A stretch of 51,861 nt of DNA from Desulfuromonadales bacterium. GTDB taxonomy: Bacteria; Desulfobacterota; Desulfuromonadia; Geobacterales; Pseudopelobacteraceae. A program made the position numbers and the translations under genes. The stretch is taken from assembly GCA_013377095.1 (NCBI GenBank), contig JACAAY010000026.1, forward strand, positions 1-51,861, read 5' to 3'. Below are positions 1-5,612 of the stretch, piece after piece (position 1 is the stretch's first letter; each line of letters starts with the position of its first letter). The notes beneath the pieces were generated by a model. It searched no databases. It was not told where the DNA came from and saw only the letters and a list, made by a program, of their open reading frames with translations.

Positions 1-702
1 TCTCAGTACAAATCGGTCAGCTTCTTGTTCTTCGATTCTTCTCCCCATTCCCTTAATGCCAAGCTTTGCCTTTGTCTCTTCAACAAAACCGATGGTGCCA
101 ACTGCAATACTCTCTGTCCAGCAACTTTCTCGTTGATTTTTACCATTGCTGATGGCCTCTTGAACCCACTGCCGGTGCTGCTCTGAAAACTGCTCGGGGT
201 CTGGAAATCCGCAAAGACTCCATAAGTTTGATATGTCAATCACGCCATACCGCTCTGGCGGATTCTGGATTTCGTTAAAGCCACACATATCCCATTCTGA
301 TGGATGGCTTACCACGCCGGCACGGACCATGTTGAGATCGATATAGATAAGGCATCGAATCAGATGTTCGTTTCGCTCAATGGCAGTAGCATGATAGCGG
401 TCTTCCCAGAAAGCTCCCTTTCGTTCTTTGCGTTGATTGAACTCTTGGGCAGTTCTCCCGGCAATCAGTTGAAGGCTTTTTGGAATAACATCCGGCCCGC
501 TATCGATCACCAAAAGGTGGATATGATTGGAGGTGACTACGTAGTTGAGTATTTTCAAGCCAAAGCGTTTCTTGGCTTCAAAGAGCCAGGAATGCCAGCA
601 CCTTCTGTCCTTTGAGAATTTCAGGAGAAATTCCTTTTTGTGGCAACGGTGGGTAATGTGCCATACCTGCCCCGGAATATGATGTCGATTTGCTCTCGCC
701 AT
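1..702 (-). CDS. REP-associated tyrosine (Y1) transposase, C-terminus beyond window
   Basis: The minus-strand frame opens at an ATG at 700-702 and stays open for 234 codons to the left edge. It begins MARANRHHIPGQVWHITHRC and has the family's HIH metal-binding triad (residues SNHIHLL) followed by a downstream region reading YIDLNMVRAG, both typical of the IS200-like/RAYT Y1 transposase family. The enzyme would act on single-stranded repeat ends. The true C-terminus can be read from the remnant second copy at 1387-1546, which is identical over the shared 55 bp. A terminal repeat (GGGGTCGGACCAA on the minus strand) lies upstream at 788-844. An AAGGTG sequence about 9 nt before the ATG may serve as ribosome binding site. 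Family confident; activity unknown. Confidence 0.8.
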   Translation of the reverse strand, partial: MARANRHHIPGQVWHITHRCHKKEFLLKFSKDRRCWHSWLFEAKKRFGLKILNYVVTSNHIHLLVIDSGPDVIPKSLQLIAGRTAQEFNQRKERKGAFWEDRYHATAIERNEHLIRCLIYIDLNMVRAGVVSHPSEWDMCGFNEIQNPPERYGVIDISNLWSLCGFPDPEQFSEQHRQWVQEAISNGKNQRESCWTESIAVGTIGFVEETKAKLGIKGMGRRIEEQEADRFVLR

Positions 703-783
703 TCTTAGAAACACCTTTTTGCCGGCAAAAACGTAGCTCTAAGACTAAAAATAGGCCGAATATGGCCCATTATCTGTGATATA

Positions 784-939
784 TCAGATGGTTAGTTTGG
801 TCCGACCCCAGACCCCAGCCATGGTTAGTTTGGTCCGACCCCAGCCGCCCCCCCCACCAGAGGTTTCTTTGCCCACACCGTCTTCTGATTCTAAGGCTGA
901 CTCCTCGTTTAGAAGTTCGCTCAGTTTTTTGGGGTCCAT
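784..939 (-). pseudogene. Remnant ORF of unknown origin ending in the transposon terminal repeat
   Basis: A 51-codon minus-strand frame starts MDPKKLSELLNEE. Its last third is simply translated terminal repeat (two copies of the residues WGRTKLT), so the original 3' end has been replaced. Immediately upstream, in the same frame, a TGA separates it from another open stretch ending VFDRKLIK. It may therefore be one older gene with a Trp-to-stop change, or two coupled genes. I do not recognise the family. Its truncation exactly at the repeat suggests it was hit by the RAYT element. Confidence 0.3.
788..844. repeat. Two tandem copies of a 24-bp transposon terminal repeat
   Basis: The 24-bp string ATGGTTAGTTTGGTCCGACC plus CCAG occurs at 788-811 and again at 821-844, 33 bp apart and identical. 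On the minus strand it reads GGGGTCGGACCAAACTAACC. An inverted, shorter version is at 1373-1390, just past the stop of the transposase remnant, so the motif appears to mark both ends of the RAYT element as inverted terminal repeats. The doubling suggests a second end or a nested insertion. Confidence 0.7.
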
Positions 940-1011
940 TCACTTGATCAACTTTCTGTCAAAGACCTGTGGGTGAAGCTTCATTATCCGGCTACGGCAC
1001 GGTAATTCTAT

Positions 1012-1083
1012 CGAACCGCCCGGTGCGGACCTGCATGCCGGGTGGTGTGGGGGCTGGGGGAGGAAAACCCCCGGCTACCCGAT
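1012..1083 (+). mobile_element. Probable group II intron 3' end (domains V-VI), no maturase
   Basis: The stretch starts GAACCGCCCGGTGCGG and continues to GCATGCCGGGTGGTGTGG, resembling the domain V stem of bacterial group II introns. It is followed by a GC-rich hairpin (GGGGGAGGAAAACCCCC) and then CTACCCGAT, as at the 3' end of many such introns. No reverse transcriptase/maturase is present upstream, so this would be a 5'-truncated fragment. Orientation is opposite to the gene cassettes to the right. Identification rests on remembered consensus, and no covariance model was run. Confidence 0.5.
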
Positions 1084-1155
1084 TGGGACTTTTGCAGTTT
1101 GTCCTTGTTTTGAAATTTGAAGACACGACTTCTTTCGCTCTCTTTGATTTTCATA

Positions 1156-1372
1156 TTACTTCGTCGGCAAAACAAATAACCCTCCTGCCGATAAGGTAGC
1201 AATGACATCAGGCATGCCGTCGCTAGTAACATCTGTCAGTGCCATTGCCTGATGAGTGAATGTCCCTCCAGCAAACTGAGTCTGTAAATAGAATGTTTTG
1301 AAGGTATTAAAGGAGTGATTTGTTGTCTGAGGTAGTATTTGTATTGTGCTTTGCTCACTCAATATGGCACTT
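1156..1372 (-). pseudogene. FG-GAP/VCBS-repeat protein fragment (3' part)
   Basis: The minus-strand frame is open from the transposon terminal repeat (1373) to a stop at 1156. Near its end it contains DVTSDGMPDVIATLSAGG, which fits the calcium-binding loop of FG-GAP/VCBS beta-propeller repeats (D-x-(T/N)-x-DG-x-x-D). There is no native start, because the frame runs straight into the terminal repeat. It is plausibly the downstream part of the lipoprotein gene whose 5' end lies at 1544-1675 on the same strand, the two halves being separated by the transposase remnant. Confidence 0.5.
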
Positions 1373-1390
1373 GGGGTCGGACCAAGCTAA
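1373..1390. repeat. Transposon terminal repeat, inverted copy
   Basis: GGGGTCGGACCAAGCTAA on the plus strand is the inverted counterpart of the repeats at 788-844. The TAG stop of the transposase remnant (1387-1389) lies inside it, so the element ends within a few bases of its coding region. Confidence 0.65.
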
Positions 1391-1546
1391 AGCGTTGAAT
1401 CTGCACACAAAACATCCCAGAGATAGCTGTTATGCGGGCTTAGACGCTCATTTTCGGGGTCAAAAACGGCACTGTAAGGTTCAGATTCCTCTCTCAGTAC
1501 AAATCGGTCAGCTTCTTGTTCTTCGATTCTTCTCCCCATTCCCTTA
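1387..1546 (-). pseudogene. REP-associated transposase, C-terminal remnant of a second copy
   Basis: The minus-strand frame GMGRRIEEQEADRFVLRE repeats the end of the left-edge transposase: 1492-1546 is identical to 1-55 over 55 bp. It then continues to the natural C-terminus ending DVLCADSTL and a TAG stop. The first roughly 220 codons and the 5' terminal repeat of this copy are missing. It sits between the N-terminal half of a lipoprotein gene and an FG-GAP fragment, so it probably marks an insertion followed by deletion. Confidence 0.75.
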
Positions 1547-1675
1547 GCCTATGCCAGCAGAGAATTGTAGTTGGGTATTCCGCGGTTGTTGATTGTCCAC
1601 TTTTTGCCCTCCACAACTCGATACCAGCATAAAAATGTAAAAAATCCAAAATATTCTAAATAAATAACTTTTCAT
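1544..1675 (-). pseudogene. Lipoprotein gene, 5' part, truncated by the transposase remnant
   Basis: A 43-codon frame begins MKSYLFRIFWIFYIFMLVSS and is followed by Cys21, so it has a hydrophobic signal peptide ending in the lipobox LVSSC. A GAGGAG ribosome binding site lies 8 nt before the ATG. The frame ends at a TAA formed exactly at the junction with the transposase remnant (1544-1546), so the natural protein was longer. The attC-like site at 1738-1800 lies 62 nt upstream, as expected for the first gene of a cassette. The FG-GAP fragment at 1156-1372 is a candidate for the missing remainder. Confidence 0.6.
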
Positions 1676-1737
1676 TATGGTTGCTCCTCTTGCAATGATA
1701 TGTAGATGCTATTCGCTACGGTGTTGATCTATGATGC

Positions 1738-1800
1738 ATCCAACAGCTGAGAGTGCAGCGGCGTTGCGAAGCGGAGTCCGTTTGCCGCGCTTTGTTGGGC
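1738..1800 (-). other. attC recombination site (best match of four)
   Basis: Read on the minus strand, the 63-bp site starts with GCCCAAC (R'', matching RYYYAAC), then AAAGCGCGGC, a central variable stretch, GCCGCTGCA, and ends with GTTGGAT (R', matching GTTRRRY). Both 7-bp cores fit the consensus and the arms form an imperfect stem with unpaired bases, as in folded attC. It begins 11 nt after the stop codon of the lipoprotein gene at 1812-2408 and precedes the truncated lipoprotein gene, which is the arrangement expected between two cassettes. No integrase gene is visible. Confidence 0.75.
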
Positions 1801-1811
1801 ACATCGAAAAC

Positions 1812-2408
1812 TTAGTTAACATTCTTGAGCCCACTTAACAGCATGAATTGGAAGGGAAATGTAATTACGTCCATTGATAAAGTCAGTGGTACGAGGAGAA
1901 ACTTGTAGACTGGAGGAAAACCTAACTCCGACTCAAGATAAAACACCTTTCGCTGAGTATATACTGATTTGGTCATATCAAAACACTCATAGTAGAGTTT
2001 ATGCTGGCATACCCCGTGATCACATTCCTGAACAAGGTAACAACCTTGGCCTACATAGTCTGACTTGAAGTTATTATCAAATCTTTTGAATACCTTGATC
2101 TCGATCCAATCGGCTGCGGGGAAATAATATCCCTCTGATATTTTCGAGCGTTTTACAAAAAACCAGTCTGAGCTGGTGTCAGTTGCCCATTCTTTGCCCA
2201 GATTAATAGTATATTCCGCATTTTCACCCTCTGCGAGAGACCCATTGAGATGAAAAACAAGGTTTTTGTCATTCTCAAAGGCACGAACAAACTCTACTTT
2301 ATCCTGCTTTGGAGTTCCTTTAGTCGCGCCTTTAAGTACGAGCGATGTTACACAGCTGGTACAGCATAGGAACAAAAGTACAAGGAACACGTGAACGATT
2401 ATCTTCAT
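1812..2408 (-). CDS. Hypothetical cassette-borne lipoprotein
   Basis: A 198-residue protein with an N-terminal signal MKIIVHVFLVLLFLCC followed by TSC, a plausible lipobox with Cys19 as the acylated residue. The rest is a soluble domain with several cysteines (GQGCYLVQECDHG region) and an aromatic-rich C-terminus containing a second hydrophobic stretch. I do not recognise a family. The ATG at 2408 is preferred over a TTG four codons earlier because GAGG lies about 6 nt before it. It is flanked by attC-like sites at 2426-2484 and 1738-1800 and would be the gene of one cassette. Confidence 0.65.
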   Translation of the reverse strand: MKIIVHVFLVLLFLCCTSCVTSLVLKGATKGTPKQDKVEFVRAFENDKNLVFHLNGSLAEGENAEYTINLGKEWATDTSSDWFFVKRSKISEGYYFPAADWIEIKVFKRFDNNFKSDYVGQGCYLVQECDHGVCQHKLYYECFDMTKSVYTQRKVFYLESELGFPPVYKFLLVPLTLSMDVITFPFQFMLLSGLKNVN

Positions 2409-2425
2409 TTCATACCTCAATTGCT

Positions 2426-2484
2426 GCTCAACGGTTTGGGAGAACAGCGGCGGTTCTTAGGCCGCTGCTTCTACCTGATTGGAA
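2426..2484 (-). other. attC-like site with hairpin CAGCGGC/GCCGCTG
   Basis: On the minus strand the site runs from TTCCAAT (R'', expected AAC, here AAT) through AGAAGCAGCGGC, a short loop and GCCGCTGTTCT to GTTGAGC (R', fits GTTRRRY). The R' lies 17 nt before the lipoprotein start and nearly complements the R'' that follows the same gene (GCCCAAC, 6 of 7). The site aligns over its length with the site at 3832-3889. Within the stem one G-C pair here is C-G there, a compensatory change. Confidence 0.55.
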
Positions 2485-2585
2485 CCTTTGCCCGCCTCTG
2501 CATTTGCACAATTCTATTATCTGATAAACATTTATGTTGTAACATTTATTGTTGACGTGCGGTATTTTTGTTGTTACGTTAAATC

Positions 2586-2858
2586 ATGATTATCGAGTTT
2601 GATTCTGCGAAAAGAGAAAAAACCCTGTTGGAGCGTGGACTCGATTTTGCTGACTCCGGCAAGGTTTTTGACGGACTTCACTTTGTCGCTCGCGATGATC
2701 GATCTGACTACGGCGAAGAGCGTTTTATAACTGTTGGGCTATTGGACAGTCGCATGGTGGTAATTGTCTGGACTCCAAGAAACGACGCCCGCCGAATTAT
2801 TTCTATGAGGTACGCCAATGACCGTGAAACCAGCCGTTACAAAAAACACCTTGGTTGA
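2586..2858 (+). CDS. brnT: BrnT-family toxin
   Basis: A 90-residue protein of normal BrnT length. It has the family pattern: an FDSAKREKTLLERG start, KVFDG near residue 28, a central GEERFITVG strand, and RRIISMRYANDRE followed by RY near the C-terminus. BrnT is a RelE-fold ribonuclease toxin that inhibits translation and is neutralised by BrnA. The reading frame overlaps brnA by 41 bp (2818-2858), as usual for the pair. Upstream DNA is very AT-rich, with inverted arms GTAACA (2539-2544) and TGTTAC (2572-2577) that could bind the BrnT-BrnA complex; this is only a suggestion. It lies in an array whose other genes are on the minus strand. Confidence 0.85.
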   Translation: MIIEFDSAKREKTLLERGLDFADSGKVFDGLHFVARDDRSDYGEERFITVGLLDSRMVVIVWTPRNDARRIISMRYANDRETSRYKKHLG

Positions 2859-3090
2859 TCCGGATGATGCTCCGGAACTGACCGATACTTGGTTTGAAAA
2901 AGCTGACCTTATGCAAGGTACCAAACTTGTTCGCCGGGGTCGTCCGGCTGGCCAGACGAAAGCTTCGCAAACTGTCCGTTTTGATTTAGATGTCCTCGCA
3001 GCTTTCAAGGCTACGGGTAAAGGGTGGCAGACCCGCATGAACGAGGCTCTAAGGGAGTGGATCAAAGAACATCCGATGAAGCACGTCTGA
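2818..3090 (+). CDS. brnA: BrnA-family antitoxin
   Basis: A 90-residue antitoxin starting inside brnT. The C-terminal half, with RRGRPAGQTKASQTVRFDLD followed by VLAAFKATGKGWQTRMNEAL, is the ribbon-helix-helix DNA-binding domain typical of BrnA. The N-terminal half, rich in acidic and aromatic residues (DDAPELTDTWFEKADL), probably wraps BrnT. The complex normally represses its own promoter. Toxin-first order and overlap match known brnTA operons. A TA pair is a common cargo of cassette arrays, where it can stabilise the array. Confidence 0.85.
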   Translation: MTVKPAVTKNTLVDPDDAPELTDTWFEKADLMQGTKLVRRGRPAGQTKASQTVRFDLDVLAAFKATGKGWQTRMNEALREWIKEHPMKHV

Positions 3091-3138
3091 CCCTTCCGGG
3101 GCATACCAAATACTCCATCATCTTCCTTCTCTTCCCAA

Positions 3139-3363
3139 TTATTTTATGAAGAGCCTTTTTGCGATGCCAAAATATCCGATGCATACTAAGTTTAATAAAA
3201 TTATGAATATAGCCAATTTGTTCTGAATTCCAAAGACAAGTCCAACTGTTACCATTCCGACGAGTCCAAAGAGTAAAGCCACTCCGGCCTTATTAGCTTC
3301 TCTTTTGGATATTGTCGCCCCGCAGAAGCAGACCTTGTAATCGTCTTTATCTGAATGCTTCAT
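3139..3363 (-). CDS. Small membrane protein of unknown function
   Basis: A 74-residue protein: a hydrophilic N-terminus with a CFC motif (KVCFCGATISKREANKAG), then two hydrophobic segments (about residues 31-47 and 50-67) and a basic tail. It may be a two-helix membrane protein with a cysteine pair facing the cytoplasm. The ATG at 3363 is chosen because GAGGAA sits directly upstream; an ATG five codons earlier lies inside the adjacent attC-like site. No family is recognised. It shares a cassette with brnTA, on the opposite strand. Confidence 0.5.
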   Translation of the reverse strand: MKHSDKDDYKVCFCGATISKREANKAGVALLFGLVGMVTVGLVFGIQNKLAIFIILLNLVCIGYFGIAKRLFIK

Positions 3364-3372
3364 TTTTTCCTC

Positions 3373-3430
3373 AGCCATCGGCTCAGGAGATCACCTGCGT
3401 CTTTTGGCCGGCGTATCTCCCTTGTTATCC
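3373..3430 (-). other. attC-like site (third site, diverged stem)
   Basis: Read on the minus strand the site starts with GGATAAC (R'') and ends with GATGGCT (R', GAT in place of GTT). It matches the site at 3832-3889 at roughly three quarters of positions over an ungapped 44-bp stretch, including GGAGA, CACC and GGCCGG. GGAGAT and ATCTCC arms pair. The TAA stop of the upstream membrane-protein gene lies inside R''. Its R'' is the exact complement of the R' (GTTATCC) at the other end of that gene's cassette. Confidence 0.5.
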
Positions 3431-3823
3431 TTTACTTTCTAAGTTCGCAAAGGGGCTGGCCCAAAAGACAAGTGCCGAAACGATCATTGTTATGCATGCG
3501 CCTATAATCACGTCTATATTGCTATCAGGAATAACAAATATGGCAACAATAGTAAGGAGTTGAATCGCAGGATAGGTAATATTCAGTTTCTTACGCCTTA
3601 AAAAGAAATAAAGAATAGGAGAGACAATTAGGGCAATCGGGATTGCAGCAGTGAGGGCTATTGTTATGACAAAAGGATCGAAAATCGATTTGAGAAGTCC
3701 AATCTTATATGCACCATCAGATGGATCTAGTCGGATGTATCTCGCAAGAACGTATGCACATGCTGTTACGATGGCACCAAGAAAGCTAAGCAAGAAAATT
3801 GTCTTAAATCTATTTGTCTTCAT
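3425..3823 (-). CDS. Hypothetical multi-pass membrane protein, cassette gene
   Basis: A 132-residue protein with about four hydrophobic segments: near residues 8-26, 46-72, 85-98 and 102-122. A basic loop (FFLRRKKLN) follows the second. No enzyme motif or family is recognised. The ATG at 3823 has AAAGA just upstream and lies 8 nt after the R' half-site; longer frames would translate the attC-like site itself. The stop lies in R'' of the next site. The gene therefore fills a compact cassette of about 0.4 kb bounded by GTTATCC and GGATAAC. Confidence 0.55.
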   Translation of the reverse strand: MKTNRFKTIFLLSFLGAIVTACAYVLARYIRLDPSDGAYKIGLLKSIFDPFVITIALTAAIPIALIVSPILYFFLRRKKLNITYPAIQLLTIVAIFVIPDSNIDVIIGACITMIVSALVFWASPFANLESKG

Positions 3824-3831
3824 ATCTTTAT

Positions 3832-3889
3832 GGATAACGGTTCGGGAGAACACCGGCGGTTTTAGGCCGGTGTTTCTGCTTGGTTGGAA
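3832..3889 (-). other. attC-like site with hairpin CACCGGC/GCCGGTG
   Basis: On the minus strand it reads TTCCAAC (R'', conserved AAC), CAAGC, AGAAACACCGGC, loop CTAAAACC, GCCGGTGTTCT, CCCGAACC and GTTATCC (R', conserved GTT). Compared with the site at 2426-2484, the hairpin sequence differs by a paired substitution, so structure is conserved rather than just sequence. It sits 8 nt upstream of the membrane-protein start. The RRRY part of R' is not consensus, which lowers confidence for this site alone. Confidence 0.55.
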
Positions 3890-4143
3890 ACTTTTTATTT
3901 TTAGCTTGTTAGCGCTATTTCTGTCAAATCGGTAGGCCTGACACTCTGCTCTGTTTTCTCTGCTCTGTTTTTTGGTCAACTTGTCAATATTGTCTTTGAA
4001 ACAGCATGTTGTTTACGTTGCTCTTCAAGATCTGAGTATTTATAAAGCACCATCAAGTTCTCTTCATCAGTGTAATTGGTTGCCGCATATTCTTTCCGTT
4101 CGCTTCTCGCATCCGCCTTCTTTGTTCCTTTGACCTTTTGCTA

Positions 4144-4392
4144 TCATTGATTTTGTGAAGAAACCACAGCAGGCTTTGCAGTCCCTAGAAGGCCCCTCAG
4201 GTCGGAATCTAACTGCTGGAAGACCTTTTTCAATGATTCTTCAGTCATTCTCACCTTTGTATCAGGCGTGTCGCACCTCATTTTTGCTATCTGCTCTTGA
4301 TGGTGACCTTCGTACGACTTATCCAGGATGGCTATCCCCCAGGAAACCATTCTCTGGAACGTTCCAGCCCAGTTGGTTATCTTGATATGCAA
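4144..4392 (-). CDS. Hypothetical protein downstream of a strong promoter
   Basis: An 82-codon minus-strand frame (TTG start at 4392, weak ribosome binding site; an ATG at 4350 is an alternative). The product is hydrophilic, with a helical segment MTEESLKKVFQQLDSDLRGL, and no family is recognised. The frame ends in tandem stops TGA TAG. The same frame then stays open to a TGA at 3976 (including ARSERKEYAATNYTDEENLM), so this may be a broken longer gene or two small genes. A perfect 14-bp palindrome, CTGGAACGTTCCAG, lies at 4354-4367. The consensus-like promoter at 4423-4451 is the best reason to believe the region is transcribed. Confidence 0.4.
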   Translation of the reverse strand: MHIKITNWAGTFQRMVSWGIAILDKSYEGHHQEQIAKMRCDTPDTKVRMTEESLKKVFQQLDSDLRGLLGTAKPAVVSSQNQ

Positions 4393-4422
4393 TGCAAGAT
4401 AGGCGTGGGTTAATTAGCGGGC

Positions 4423-4451
4423 AATATAGTCTGAAGTAAAAACAATGTCAA
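4423..4451 (-). promoter_or_regulatory. Strong sigma70-type promoter reading into the cassette array
   Basis: On the minus strand, TTGACA (4451-4446) and TATATT (4428-4423) are separated by exactly 17 bp. Transcription would start near 4416 and proceed through the hypothetical gene at 4144-4392 towards the attC-like sites. No integron integrase lies next to it. Confidence 0.7.
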
Positions 4452-4560
4452 AAGAGATTGCATGCTTCTTATTCTGAATGCCGTGTTTACCGGCTATGTT
4501 GCGCATCTCAATACGCGGGGAGCCGAGAAGCCCGCTGGATTTCTGAGTGCGCCACAGACA

Positions 4561-4598
4561 GAAAAAGGGCGGCCGTCATTTAGACAGCCGCCCTTTTG
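4561..4598 (-). terminator. Rho-independent terminator of the galE operon
   Basis: On the minus strand AAAAGGGCGGC pairs with GCCGCCC followed by TTTTTC, just past the galE stop. The hairpin has an extra inner TGTC/GAC pairing. Confidence 0.8.
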
Positions 4599-4619
4599 TG
4601 TGGTGCGCCAGGTGTTTTT

Positions 4620-5612
4620 CTATTTCGCCAGTGCCGCCAGCTTGCTCTCCCATCTCCAGGCGTCGGCGATGATGGTGCGCAGGTCGGCGTGCTGCGGCTG
4701 CCATCCGGTCAGCCTGCCGATTTTGTCGGCCTGCGCCACCAGCGAGGCCGGATCGCCGGGACGGCGCTCATCCTCCACCACCTTGAACTCCACACCGCTC
4801 ACCTCCCTGACCAGATCCAGCACCTGCCGCACCGTGCTTCCACGGCCATAGCCCACATTCATGGCGGTCGGCTCGCCCCCCCGTTCCAGATAGCGCAGGG
4901 CGTAGAGGTGGGCGGAGGCCAGGTCCTCGATATGGATGTAGTCGCGGACGCCGGTGCCGTCCGGAGTGGGATAGTCGGTGCCGTAGATGGCGATACTGTC
5001 GCGCATCCCCAGGGCAGCCTGACAGGCCACCTTGATCAGGTGGGTCGCTTCGGGAGTGCGCTGACCCATGCGGGCCTGGGGATCGGCGCCGGCCACGTTG
5101 AAATAGCGCAGCGCCACGTACTGCATGCCATGGGCAGCGGAGGTGTCCCGCAGCATCCACTCGCTCATCAGCTTGGAGGTGCCGTAGGGGTTGATGGGCG
5201 CCAGGGCGGTCTCTTCGGCTGCCACTCCGCCCTCGGGAAAACCGTAGACCGCTGCGGTGCTGGAAAAGATGAAACGCTTAACGCCATGTTTTGTGCAGGC
5301 TTCCAGCAGCCCCAGGGTGTTGCGGGTGTTGTTGCCGTAGTACTTTAGCGGCAATGAAACCGACTCCGGAGCGATGATGGCGGCGGCAAAGTGCAGTACG
5401 GTGGTACAGCCGTGGCGCTTAAATGCGGCGTCCAGGGCTGCGGCATCGGACAGCTCGCCCACGATCAGTTCCTCGCCATGCACAAGGGCATCGCGGAAAC
5501 CGGTTGAGAGGTTGTCATAGACCACGACATGGCGGCCCGCTTCACTGAGTTGACGGACAACATGGCTGCCGATATAGCCGCAGCCGCCGGTTACGAGGAT
5601 TTTGTCGGACAT
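4620..5612 (-). CDS. galE: UDP-glucose 4-epimerase
   Basis: A 330-residue extended short-chain dehydrogenase that interconverts UDP-glucose and UDP-galactose with bound NAD, supplying galactose for surface polysaccharide. The Rossmann motif GGCGYIG is at residues 9-15. The catalytic set is Ser118 (FSSTAAVYG), Tyr143 and Lys147 (NPYGTSK), followed by the substrate segment RYFNVAGA. Length is normal for GalE. AAGGA lies 6 nt before the ATG. It is the last gene of a three-gene minus-strand run (K+ channel, TIM-barrel protein, galE) ending at a good terminator, and it marks the border between core genome and the accessory island. Confidence 0.93.
   Translation of the reverse strand: MSDKILVTGGCGYIGSHVVRQLSEAGRHVVVYDNLSTGFRDALVHGEELIVGELSDAAALDAAFKRHGCTTVLHFAAAIIAPESVSLPLKYYGNNTRNTLGLLEACTKHGVKRFIFSSTAAVYGFPEGGVAAEETALAPINPYGTSKLMSEWMLRDTSAAHGMQYVALRYFNVAGADPQARMGQRTPEATHLIKVACQAALGMRDSIAIYGTDYPTPDGTGVRDYIHIEDLASAHLYALRYLERGGEPTAMNVGYGRGSTVRQVLDLVREVSGVEFKVVEDERRPGDPASLVAQADKIGRLTGWQPQHADLRTIIADAWRWESKLAALAK

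Follow-up and report, generated by a model that had tools for sequence, protein, structure and literature searches.

The beginning of contig JACAAY010000026.1 of a Desulfuromonadales bacterium (GenBank assembly GCA_013377095.1) raises the question whether a row of gene cassettes without a visible integrase gene represents the remains of an integron or a cluster that arose away from one. The stretch analysed, positions 1 to 51,861 of the contig, is referred to as the window. A preliminary description, made from the sequence alone, had noticed an array of four co-oriented attC-like sites and had proposed a CALIN, that is a cluster of attC sites lacking an integron integrase. The locus was found to contain three cassettes that are bounded by four co-oriented attC sites and lie next to a 102-bp remnant of the gene for an integron integrase (intI), the middle of which, about 1.3 kb, was likely lost by deletion. 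In our judgement the locus is very probably a dead chromosomal integron, predicted to be no longer able to move its own cassettes.

Three covariance models were used in the searches: R1, trained on nine sites of the s4 family from the window's own genome, R2, trained on 50 sites of which none came from that genome, and R3, trained on 11 sites of the s1 family taken from other genomes only. A covariance search had been suggested as a check of the preliminary description, and R2 and R3 scored all four sites where they had been placed:

1738..1801, minus strand: attC site s1 (R3 65.1 bits, E 1.9e-21), with the full consensus in both cores (GCCCAAC / GTTGGAT)
2426..2487, minus strand: attC site s2 (R2 74.6 bits; R3 29.7 bits), with AAT for AAC in the R'' core
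3373..3433, minus strand: attC site s3 (R2 46.5 bits, E 5.1e-11), with a degenerate R' core, GAT for GTT
3832..3892, minus strand: attC site s4 (R2 77.7 bits, E 7.5e-20; R3 20.9 bits), with the core triplets AAC/GTT

The next best match on the whole window reached 12.0 bits (E 0.29) with R2, after s4, s2 and s3, and 11.4 bits (E 0.36) with R3, after s1, s2 and s4. The four sites are the sole significant matches of these foreign-trained models in the 51.9-kb window. The consensus at both cores, which had been claimed for the last site of the array, is complete in s1. The AAC/GTT type that had been ascribed to all cores applies to s1 and s4, whereas s2 (AAT/GTT) and s3 (AAC/GAT) have one drifted triplet each; the flanking RYYY/RRRY letters are partly unmet in s3 and s4.

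The sites s2, s3 and s4 form one homologous family and s1 belongs to a second attC family. Relatives of s4 are present on other contigs of the own genome, in which R1 detected 12 places on eight contigs (E <= 0.0062), including s2, s3 and s4 and with nine of the 12 being its training sites. BLAST detected no copy of s1 elsewhere in the own genome; the interpretation of s1 as unrelated sequence was dropped once an s1 family had become apparent in the relatives, with matches in 25 of the 57 genomes searched, the window's own counted in both figures (E 0.1; the weakest may be due to chance). Against plasmid DNA s1 gave no match at E 1. When R1 was carried to the 57 genomes, at least 47 contained a match at E 0.01, and 92 collected matches, read as sequence, displayed the cores YYYAAC (R'') and GTTRRRY (R') around a conserved imperfect hairpin, CAGGMAGAAGCASCGGCC-TAAAA-CCGCCGSTGTTCTCCC. 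The stem varies by paired changes, such as CAGCGGC/GCCGCTG versus CACCGGC/GCCGGTG and AGAA/TTCT versus AGAT/ATCT. A central hairpin, which had been assigned to all four sites, was recovered as a consensus fold of the nine sites from the own genome, in which one base between two helices stays unpaired and 2 of 13 pairs show changes on both sides, and on single-site folding s2 (z -3.1) and s4 (z -2.9) were better than shuffled sequences. A pattern scan of named genomes yielded 31 stretches, all but two of them (29) in records of Geobacter, Geobacteraceae, Trichlorobacter, Geomonas, Pelobacter and Desulfuromonad- or Deltaproteobacteria. Together with the relatives found, this suggests that the window's organism, too, belongs to the Geobacterales. 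The own contigs C180 (L019:1-110) and C199 (L021:6397-6457) carry contig-end attC sites with a common upstream flank and differing downstream flanks, a pattern as expected of a duplicated or recombined cassette end.

In an integron the leading R' and the trailing R'' of a cassette are expected to be complementary. In the window, the cassettes designated A (gene at 3425-3823), B and C (gene at 1812-2408) in array order are complementary at 7, 3 and 6 of 7 core positions, the values for A and C being those of the preliminary description, which had not quoted the middle cassette. The comparison was extended to 20 neighbouring-site pairs as found by the model, which include the two pairs of the window and some of which may skip an unseen site. 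On average 2.5 of the 4 variable core bases agreed, versus 1.52 in shuffles, none of 20,000 being as high. A within-site control of R' against R'' gave 1.31 of 4 variable bases in 86 of the 92 collected sites, five second copies of loci under two identifiers and the first copy of L082 having been dropped. Full agreement at 7 of 7 positions occurred in 7 of the 20 pairs, among them six of the seven pairs less than 800 bp apart. The complementarity across cassettes is general and not confined to the window.

All four sites of the window lie on the minus strand, divergent from the intI relic described below. In the relatives, all 51 sites entered among the matches listed, beside 15 integrase genes or fragments, are located upstream of the integrase on the opposite strand. 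This count was compiled by hand from contigs with an intI match and from sites within 22 kb of intI. Matches with E values of about 0.05 or higher were left out, including two weak matches in opposite orientation on G022 (L181 12513 and 13949; E 0.20 and 0.19), and so were L172 16882 (one place with L055 1882) and L198 993. Outside the count stand a canonical BLAST match on G049:C6 and more distant sites on the same chromosomes, whose orientation was unscored.

Evidence for a former integron is provided by two short pieces of intI between the array and the galE gene:

4445..4519, plus strand: 5' piece of intI, comprising roughly the first 25 codons with a frameshift, with a 78% protein match to residues 6-28 (E 5.4e-4)
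4520..4546, plus strand: 3' remnant of intI, the last 8 codons and the stop, sharing 25 of 27 bases with the terminal part of the G001 gene

Window positions 4328-4521 align over 195 bp, with 85.6% identity, to the beginning of an intact intI (L044) and the region preceding it in G001, a genome of the same genus; this intI encodes an integrase of 474 amino acids (357 bits, cut-off 265). In that gene 1,320 bp separate the two pieces, which together make up 102 bp, or about 33 codons, and share a 2-bp GA at their junction. The relic lies within 0.6 kb of the first attC site, s4, and a gap of 73 bp separates its stop from the galE end; it is directed away from the cassettes, which is the canonical divergent position. 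Another own contig, C195, has a further stretch with 76% identity to window 4400-4500.

The preliminary description had seen no intI, which is correct for an intact gene but overlooked the relic at 4445-4546. No integron integrase exceeded the TIGR02249 cut-off of 265 bits in the 241-contig assembly of the own genome, and none was detected on the contig at E 0.001. The best own-genome matches to the profile were tyrosine recombinases without the middle of the profile, which we take to be XerC/XerD; C164 and C177 contributed short C-terminal pieces. Among the 57 genomes, intI over the cut-off is present in 30, and the window's genome is not one of them. With intact intI absent, the functional integrase that characterises a complete integron is lacking here. 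The locus, with at least two attC sites close by (four in 2.2 kb) and no integrase over the cut-off, is formally a CALIN, as had been proposed, with the addition of a relic beside the array.

Upstream of the relic, two further features extend towards the cassettes:

4329..4444, no strand assigned: conserved intI-upstream segment, whose homology to both G001 copies ends at about 4328-4329, short of the relatives' putative attI
4423..4451, minus strand: promoter-like sequence TTGACA-17-TATATT, a candidate Pc facing the cassettes, with 11 of 12 positions matching

The intI upstream region matches G001 at two places with 86-90% identity. The candidate Pc is the best of seven promoter-like matches in 1000-4700. 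Its hexamers occur also in G001 with unchanged spacer and in G006 with altered spacer, and G004 has TTGACA-16-TATATA; it was not seen in the other 10 aligned relatives, whose upstream sequence differs. Since the first hexamer overlaps intI codons, its conservation may be due to coding and is no proof of a promoter. The upstream regions of G001, G006 and G004 have a common segment, likely to be attI, whose terminal GTTRG is located some 210-265 bp before intI begins. The motif GTTAGAT, located upstream of the relic at roughly the expected distance, was considered as attI and rejected because of a deviating spacing and poor pairing with the R'' of s4. In 10 of 13 aligned relatives with a long integrase, a small conserved open reading frame (ORF; MKTR...LKPGQ.GTK...YGD) is apparently located, in divergent orientation, between the first cassette and intI; the copy at L055:5237-5596 encodes 119 amino acids with a DUF5710 match below the cut-off, and only this copy was translated, the others being read from aligned DNA. 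The small ORF was not seen in the window or in its three nearest counterparts.

Since the array adjoins a collapsed intI and the conserved intI-upstream segment, the locus is most aptly viewed as what is left of an integron rather than as a cluster formed at a distance from one. The CALIN was most likely formed here by deletion of intI, and the locus looks like the fossil of an integron that lost its engine and kept its cargo. By what is established for integrons, IntI from the once complete gene would have recombined attI with the attC sites that circular cassettes present as folded single strands, and the attC sites of the window are predicted substrates of an IntI. The cassettes would have been inserted one by one in minus orientation, an insertion that would leave the observed pairing of leading R' with trailing R'' in each cassette. 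One internal deletion may have removed the middle of intI, and a second break at about 4329 may have removed attI. The retained promoter-like sequence might transcribe the cassettes, the BrnTA pair of cassette B might maintain the array, and mobilisation would be expected only with IntI supplied in trans. Toxin-antitoxin cassettes are commonly thought to stabilise arrays.

Several observations weigh against the interpretation as a dead integron. The training sites of R2 and R3 were originally picked by likeness to the window sites, and the scores are not fully independent. Folded alone, s1 (z -1.4) and s3 (z -1.0) are not clearly better than shuffles. The middle cassette B agrees at only 3 of 7 core positions, as both its cores have drifted (GAT and AAT for GTT and AAC). 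The seven promoter-like matches in 1000-4700 compare with 6.1 expected by shuffling. A search of the window for the putative attI of G001, G006 and G004 gave only chance-like matches of 9-13 bases, and the region 3893-4328, between the relic and the first attC site, is without identified origin; on both grounds relic and array may not have been joined from the outset. The integron of G001 is not located at galE, and the platform location accordingly differs between the two species. Moreover, the window opens at the start of a contig, where a 55-bp repeat is present, in an assembly of 241 contigs with 5.56% contamination, and a misjoin is possible.

The published literature names three hypotheses for the origin of CALINs, namely off-target insertion, loss of a recognisable intI and rearrangement (PMC8618304, as far as its excerpted text goes). 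A rearrangement that joined a piece of an integron platform, consisting of the relic and its upstream segment, to a separate cassette cluster appears unlikely, albeit with several points in its favour: the homology to the two G001 copies stops at 4328-4329 in both, the downstream flank of the G001 intI is not shared, and galE is found elsewhere in G001. The order and orientation, on the other hand, are those of one integron, and deletion of attI together with some cassettes accounts equally for the break at about 4329.

We regard it as quite improbable that the cluster was seeded away from any integron by off-target cassette insertion through an IntI acting from elsewhere, with the relic being coincidental or derived from another event. 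The proximity of the relic to the first site, at most 0.6 kb, and a side and strand that agree with the arrangement of the sites at all 15 integrase genes or fragments counted in the relatives argue against such an origin, as does an assembly without an intact IntI to act from elsewhere; the missing attI between relic and array and the distribution of the 12 own-genome family sites over 8 contigs, some solitary within the reach of the model, would fit it.

An assembly artefact, in which sequence of another contig or strain was wrongly joined here as relic or array, is very improbable. The number of contigs, the contamination and the position of family sites at the very ends of C180 and C199 speak for it, but the relic lies inside a continuous contig, 73 bp from the galE end, and its upstream region matches the same-genus genome at two places with high identity.

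That the hairpin family is a dispersed repeat (a terminator or palindromic element) with fortuitous AAC/GTT ends and not attC is scarcely credible, since, for all that some own-genome copies are solitary, that sites occur in genomes without intI over the cut-off (e.g. G008, G015, G030, G038 and G041) and that a terminator scan flags a short plus-strand stem inside s4 (four found in the region versus 3.7 expected), the YYYAAC / GTTRRRY cores emerging in the relatives, the cassette-wise complementarity and the 51 of 51 orientations among the matches listed stand against it, the same grounds on which hairpins as terminators were rejected.

The reading of the window as a dead integron agrees with the state of integrase genes in the relatives, many of which have a single open frame of 450-500 amino acids for a long IntI. 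The genome of G001 contains, in addition to its intact integrase, a second relic, 43 codons in length and preceded by two canonically oriented attC sites. On a contig of G066 only residues 7-228 and 420-474 of the integrase are matched, each in a frame of its own, the part between being missing or unalignable. Loss of intI seems to be repeated in this group, in agreement with the shares of inactive intI of nearly one third and of 43-46% given in the excerpts of PMC2426708 and PMC3108266, respectively. A more far-reaching notion, which we consider doubtful, is that integrons of this genus were repeatedly frozen, with intI cut to its first few dozen codons overlapping an outward promoter and with promoter and cassettes kept, such that a gene-capture platform became a fixed expressed operon; this process would then have acted independently in the window and at the second G001 locus. 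In G045 (L055:5685-7051) a long IntI is split into two adjacent ORFs, an N-terminal piece of 138 amino acids and a core of 316 amino acids.

With respect to known systems, the window resembles a CALIN in its four attC sites within 2.2 kb, their single orientation, the absence of a functional intI and an ordinary cargo that includes a toxin-antitoxin pair; it differs from the usual CALIN in keeping a 102-bp intI relic, the intI-upstream segment and a promoter-like sequence alongside. Its attC families and divergent layout are those of the sedentary chromosomal integrons of Geobacterales with a long IntI, from which it deviates by the collapsed intI and by the attI that was not found. Geobacter integrases are described in the excerpt of Nemergut et al. 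2008 (PMC2426708), as is clade 15, which is deltaproteobacterial and includes a protein group about 120 amino acids longer. The long open frames of the relatives and the 474-residue product of the G001 gene agree with that length, and the G001 gene would presumably belong to this clade. Pseudo-integrons with truncated or frameshifted intI, as they appear in the excerpts of PMC2426708 and of PMC12444791, the latter reporting truncated intI and CALINs in Xanthomonas, likewise lost the integrase and kept the cassettes; unlike those, as far as the excerpts go, the window retains both intI ends with nearly the whole middle gone and about 33 codons left. The locus is of a known kind with an unusually readable history, as the retention of both ends of the lost intI makes the route of loss legible from the sequence. 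An intI profile search does not see the relic, and the number of dead integrons among other CALINs would become apparent from a search for such short relics next to them. The analysis also yields two usable attC models for Geobacterales, R2 and R3, and a composite toxin-antitoxin cassette common to two genera. No paper on this locus was found in the open-licence PubMed Central literature, judged by titles and abstract starts.

The cassettes of the window contain the following genes:

3425..3823, minus strand: cassette A ORF of 132 amino acids, hydrophobic and membrane-protein-like by eye, with 17 database homologues (58-92% identical)
3139..3378, minus strand: small ORF of cassette B, 79 amino acids, hydrophobic by eye, with 38 database hits, one of them its own
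2818..3090, plus strand: BrnA antitoxin of cassette B (Pfam PF14384, E 4.5e-25)
2586..2858, plus strand: BrnT toxin of cassette B, an RNase of a type II toxin-antitoxin system (Pfam PF04365, E 7.1e-23)
1812..2408, minus strand: cassette C ORF of 198 amino acids with a lipoprotein-like start by eye

The statement that the sites separate minus-strand ORFs holds for cassettes A and C and for the small ORF of cassette B, but cassette B contains in addition the plus-strand brnT and brnA genes, antisense to the small ORF. A comparison with NCBIfam gave no family for BrnT, BrnA or the ORFs of cassettes A, B and C, and the database search gave no homologue of the cassette C protein other than itself. 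Relatives of the cassette A protein on viral contigs were also considered: 16 stretches fitted a pattern and none was a real relative. Homologues of the 79-amino-acid ORF are present in 10 of 141 genomes of the order, the own included, and those of G052 (two of three), G006 and G045 are located on intI-bearing contigs within 13 kb of the integrase. The entire cassette B unit recurs in G066, a member of another genus, with 86% DNA identity over 842 bp and protein identities of 93% for BrnT, 93% for BrnA and 76% for the small ORF. A weak attC match (R2 20.7 bits, E 0.0024) directly precedes the ORF in G066, and none was found at the other end of the unit. The alignment ends at most about 50 bp from the ends of the window cassette, as the transfer of a whole cassette predicts. 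Further BrnTA pairs with 79-91% identity to that of the window are encoded at L078:1501-2123 and L116:1271-1827, the L078 pair being about 50 bp from an attC site and antisense to it.

On the other side of the relic, the window contains chromosomal sequence:

4563..4597, no strand assigned: hairpin that follows galE, with 31 bp conserved at 90% in G001
4620..5612, minus strand: galE, the chromosomal neighbour (TIGR01179, 447 bits)

A comparison of related genomes at galE had been proposed, and the array turned out not to be fixed downstream of this gene: among 19 GalE loci only G001 matches window 1-4619 at E 1e-3, by the 31-bp hairpin. None of these 19 non-own loci, which were fetched by GalE with at most 1.5 kb of flank each and include some paralogues of about 50% identity, gave an intI match. 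In G001 another gene follows galE, and the integrase is 0.4 Mb away.

At the outer end of the array, the end of a group II intron was identified:

1014..1083, plus strand: group II intron 3' end, IIC-attC-like (Rfam RF00029, 44.1 bits), on the strand opposite to the cassettes

This 3' end can be aligned over 87 bp, at 82% identity, with the terminal part of a full intron that the G045 integron carries. Only the 3' end is present in the window, the 5' exon is missing, and T-GGG follows as an insertion at TTGT/T would leave. Orientation opposite to the cassettes and the following T-GGG would fit the group IIC-attC introns of PMC7923331, as they appear in its excerpt, from which the window differs in having the 3' end only and an attC that is not recognisable; the intron end possibly marks a further, interrupted attC site. 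The full intron of G045 (L172:14610-16404) encodes a reverse transcriptase, lies opposite to the cassettes in an array of about 15 attC sites and has an attC-like sequence on its 5' side.

A perfect 55-bp direct repeat is located at window positions 1-55 and 1492-1546, and its first copy is the start of the contig, which probably broke at this repeat. A 19-bp repeat of the TTAGTTTGGTCCGACCCCA type is present in three copies at 792-843 and 1372-1390, one of them inverted. The minus strand of about 1-703 contains a broken transposase-like gene, presumably resembling the REP-associated Y1 type.

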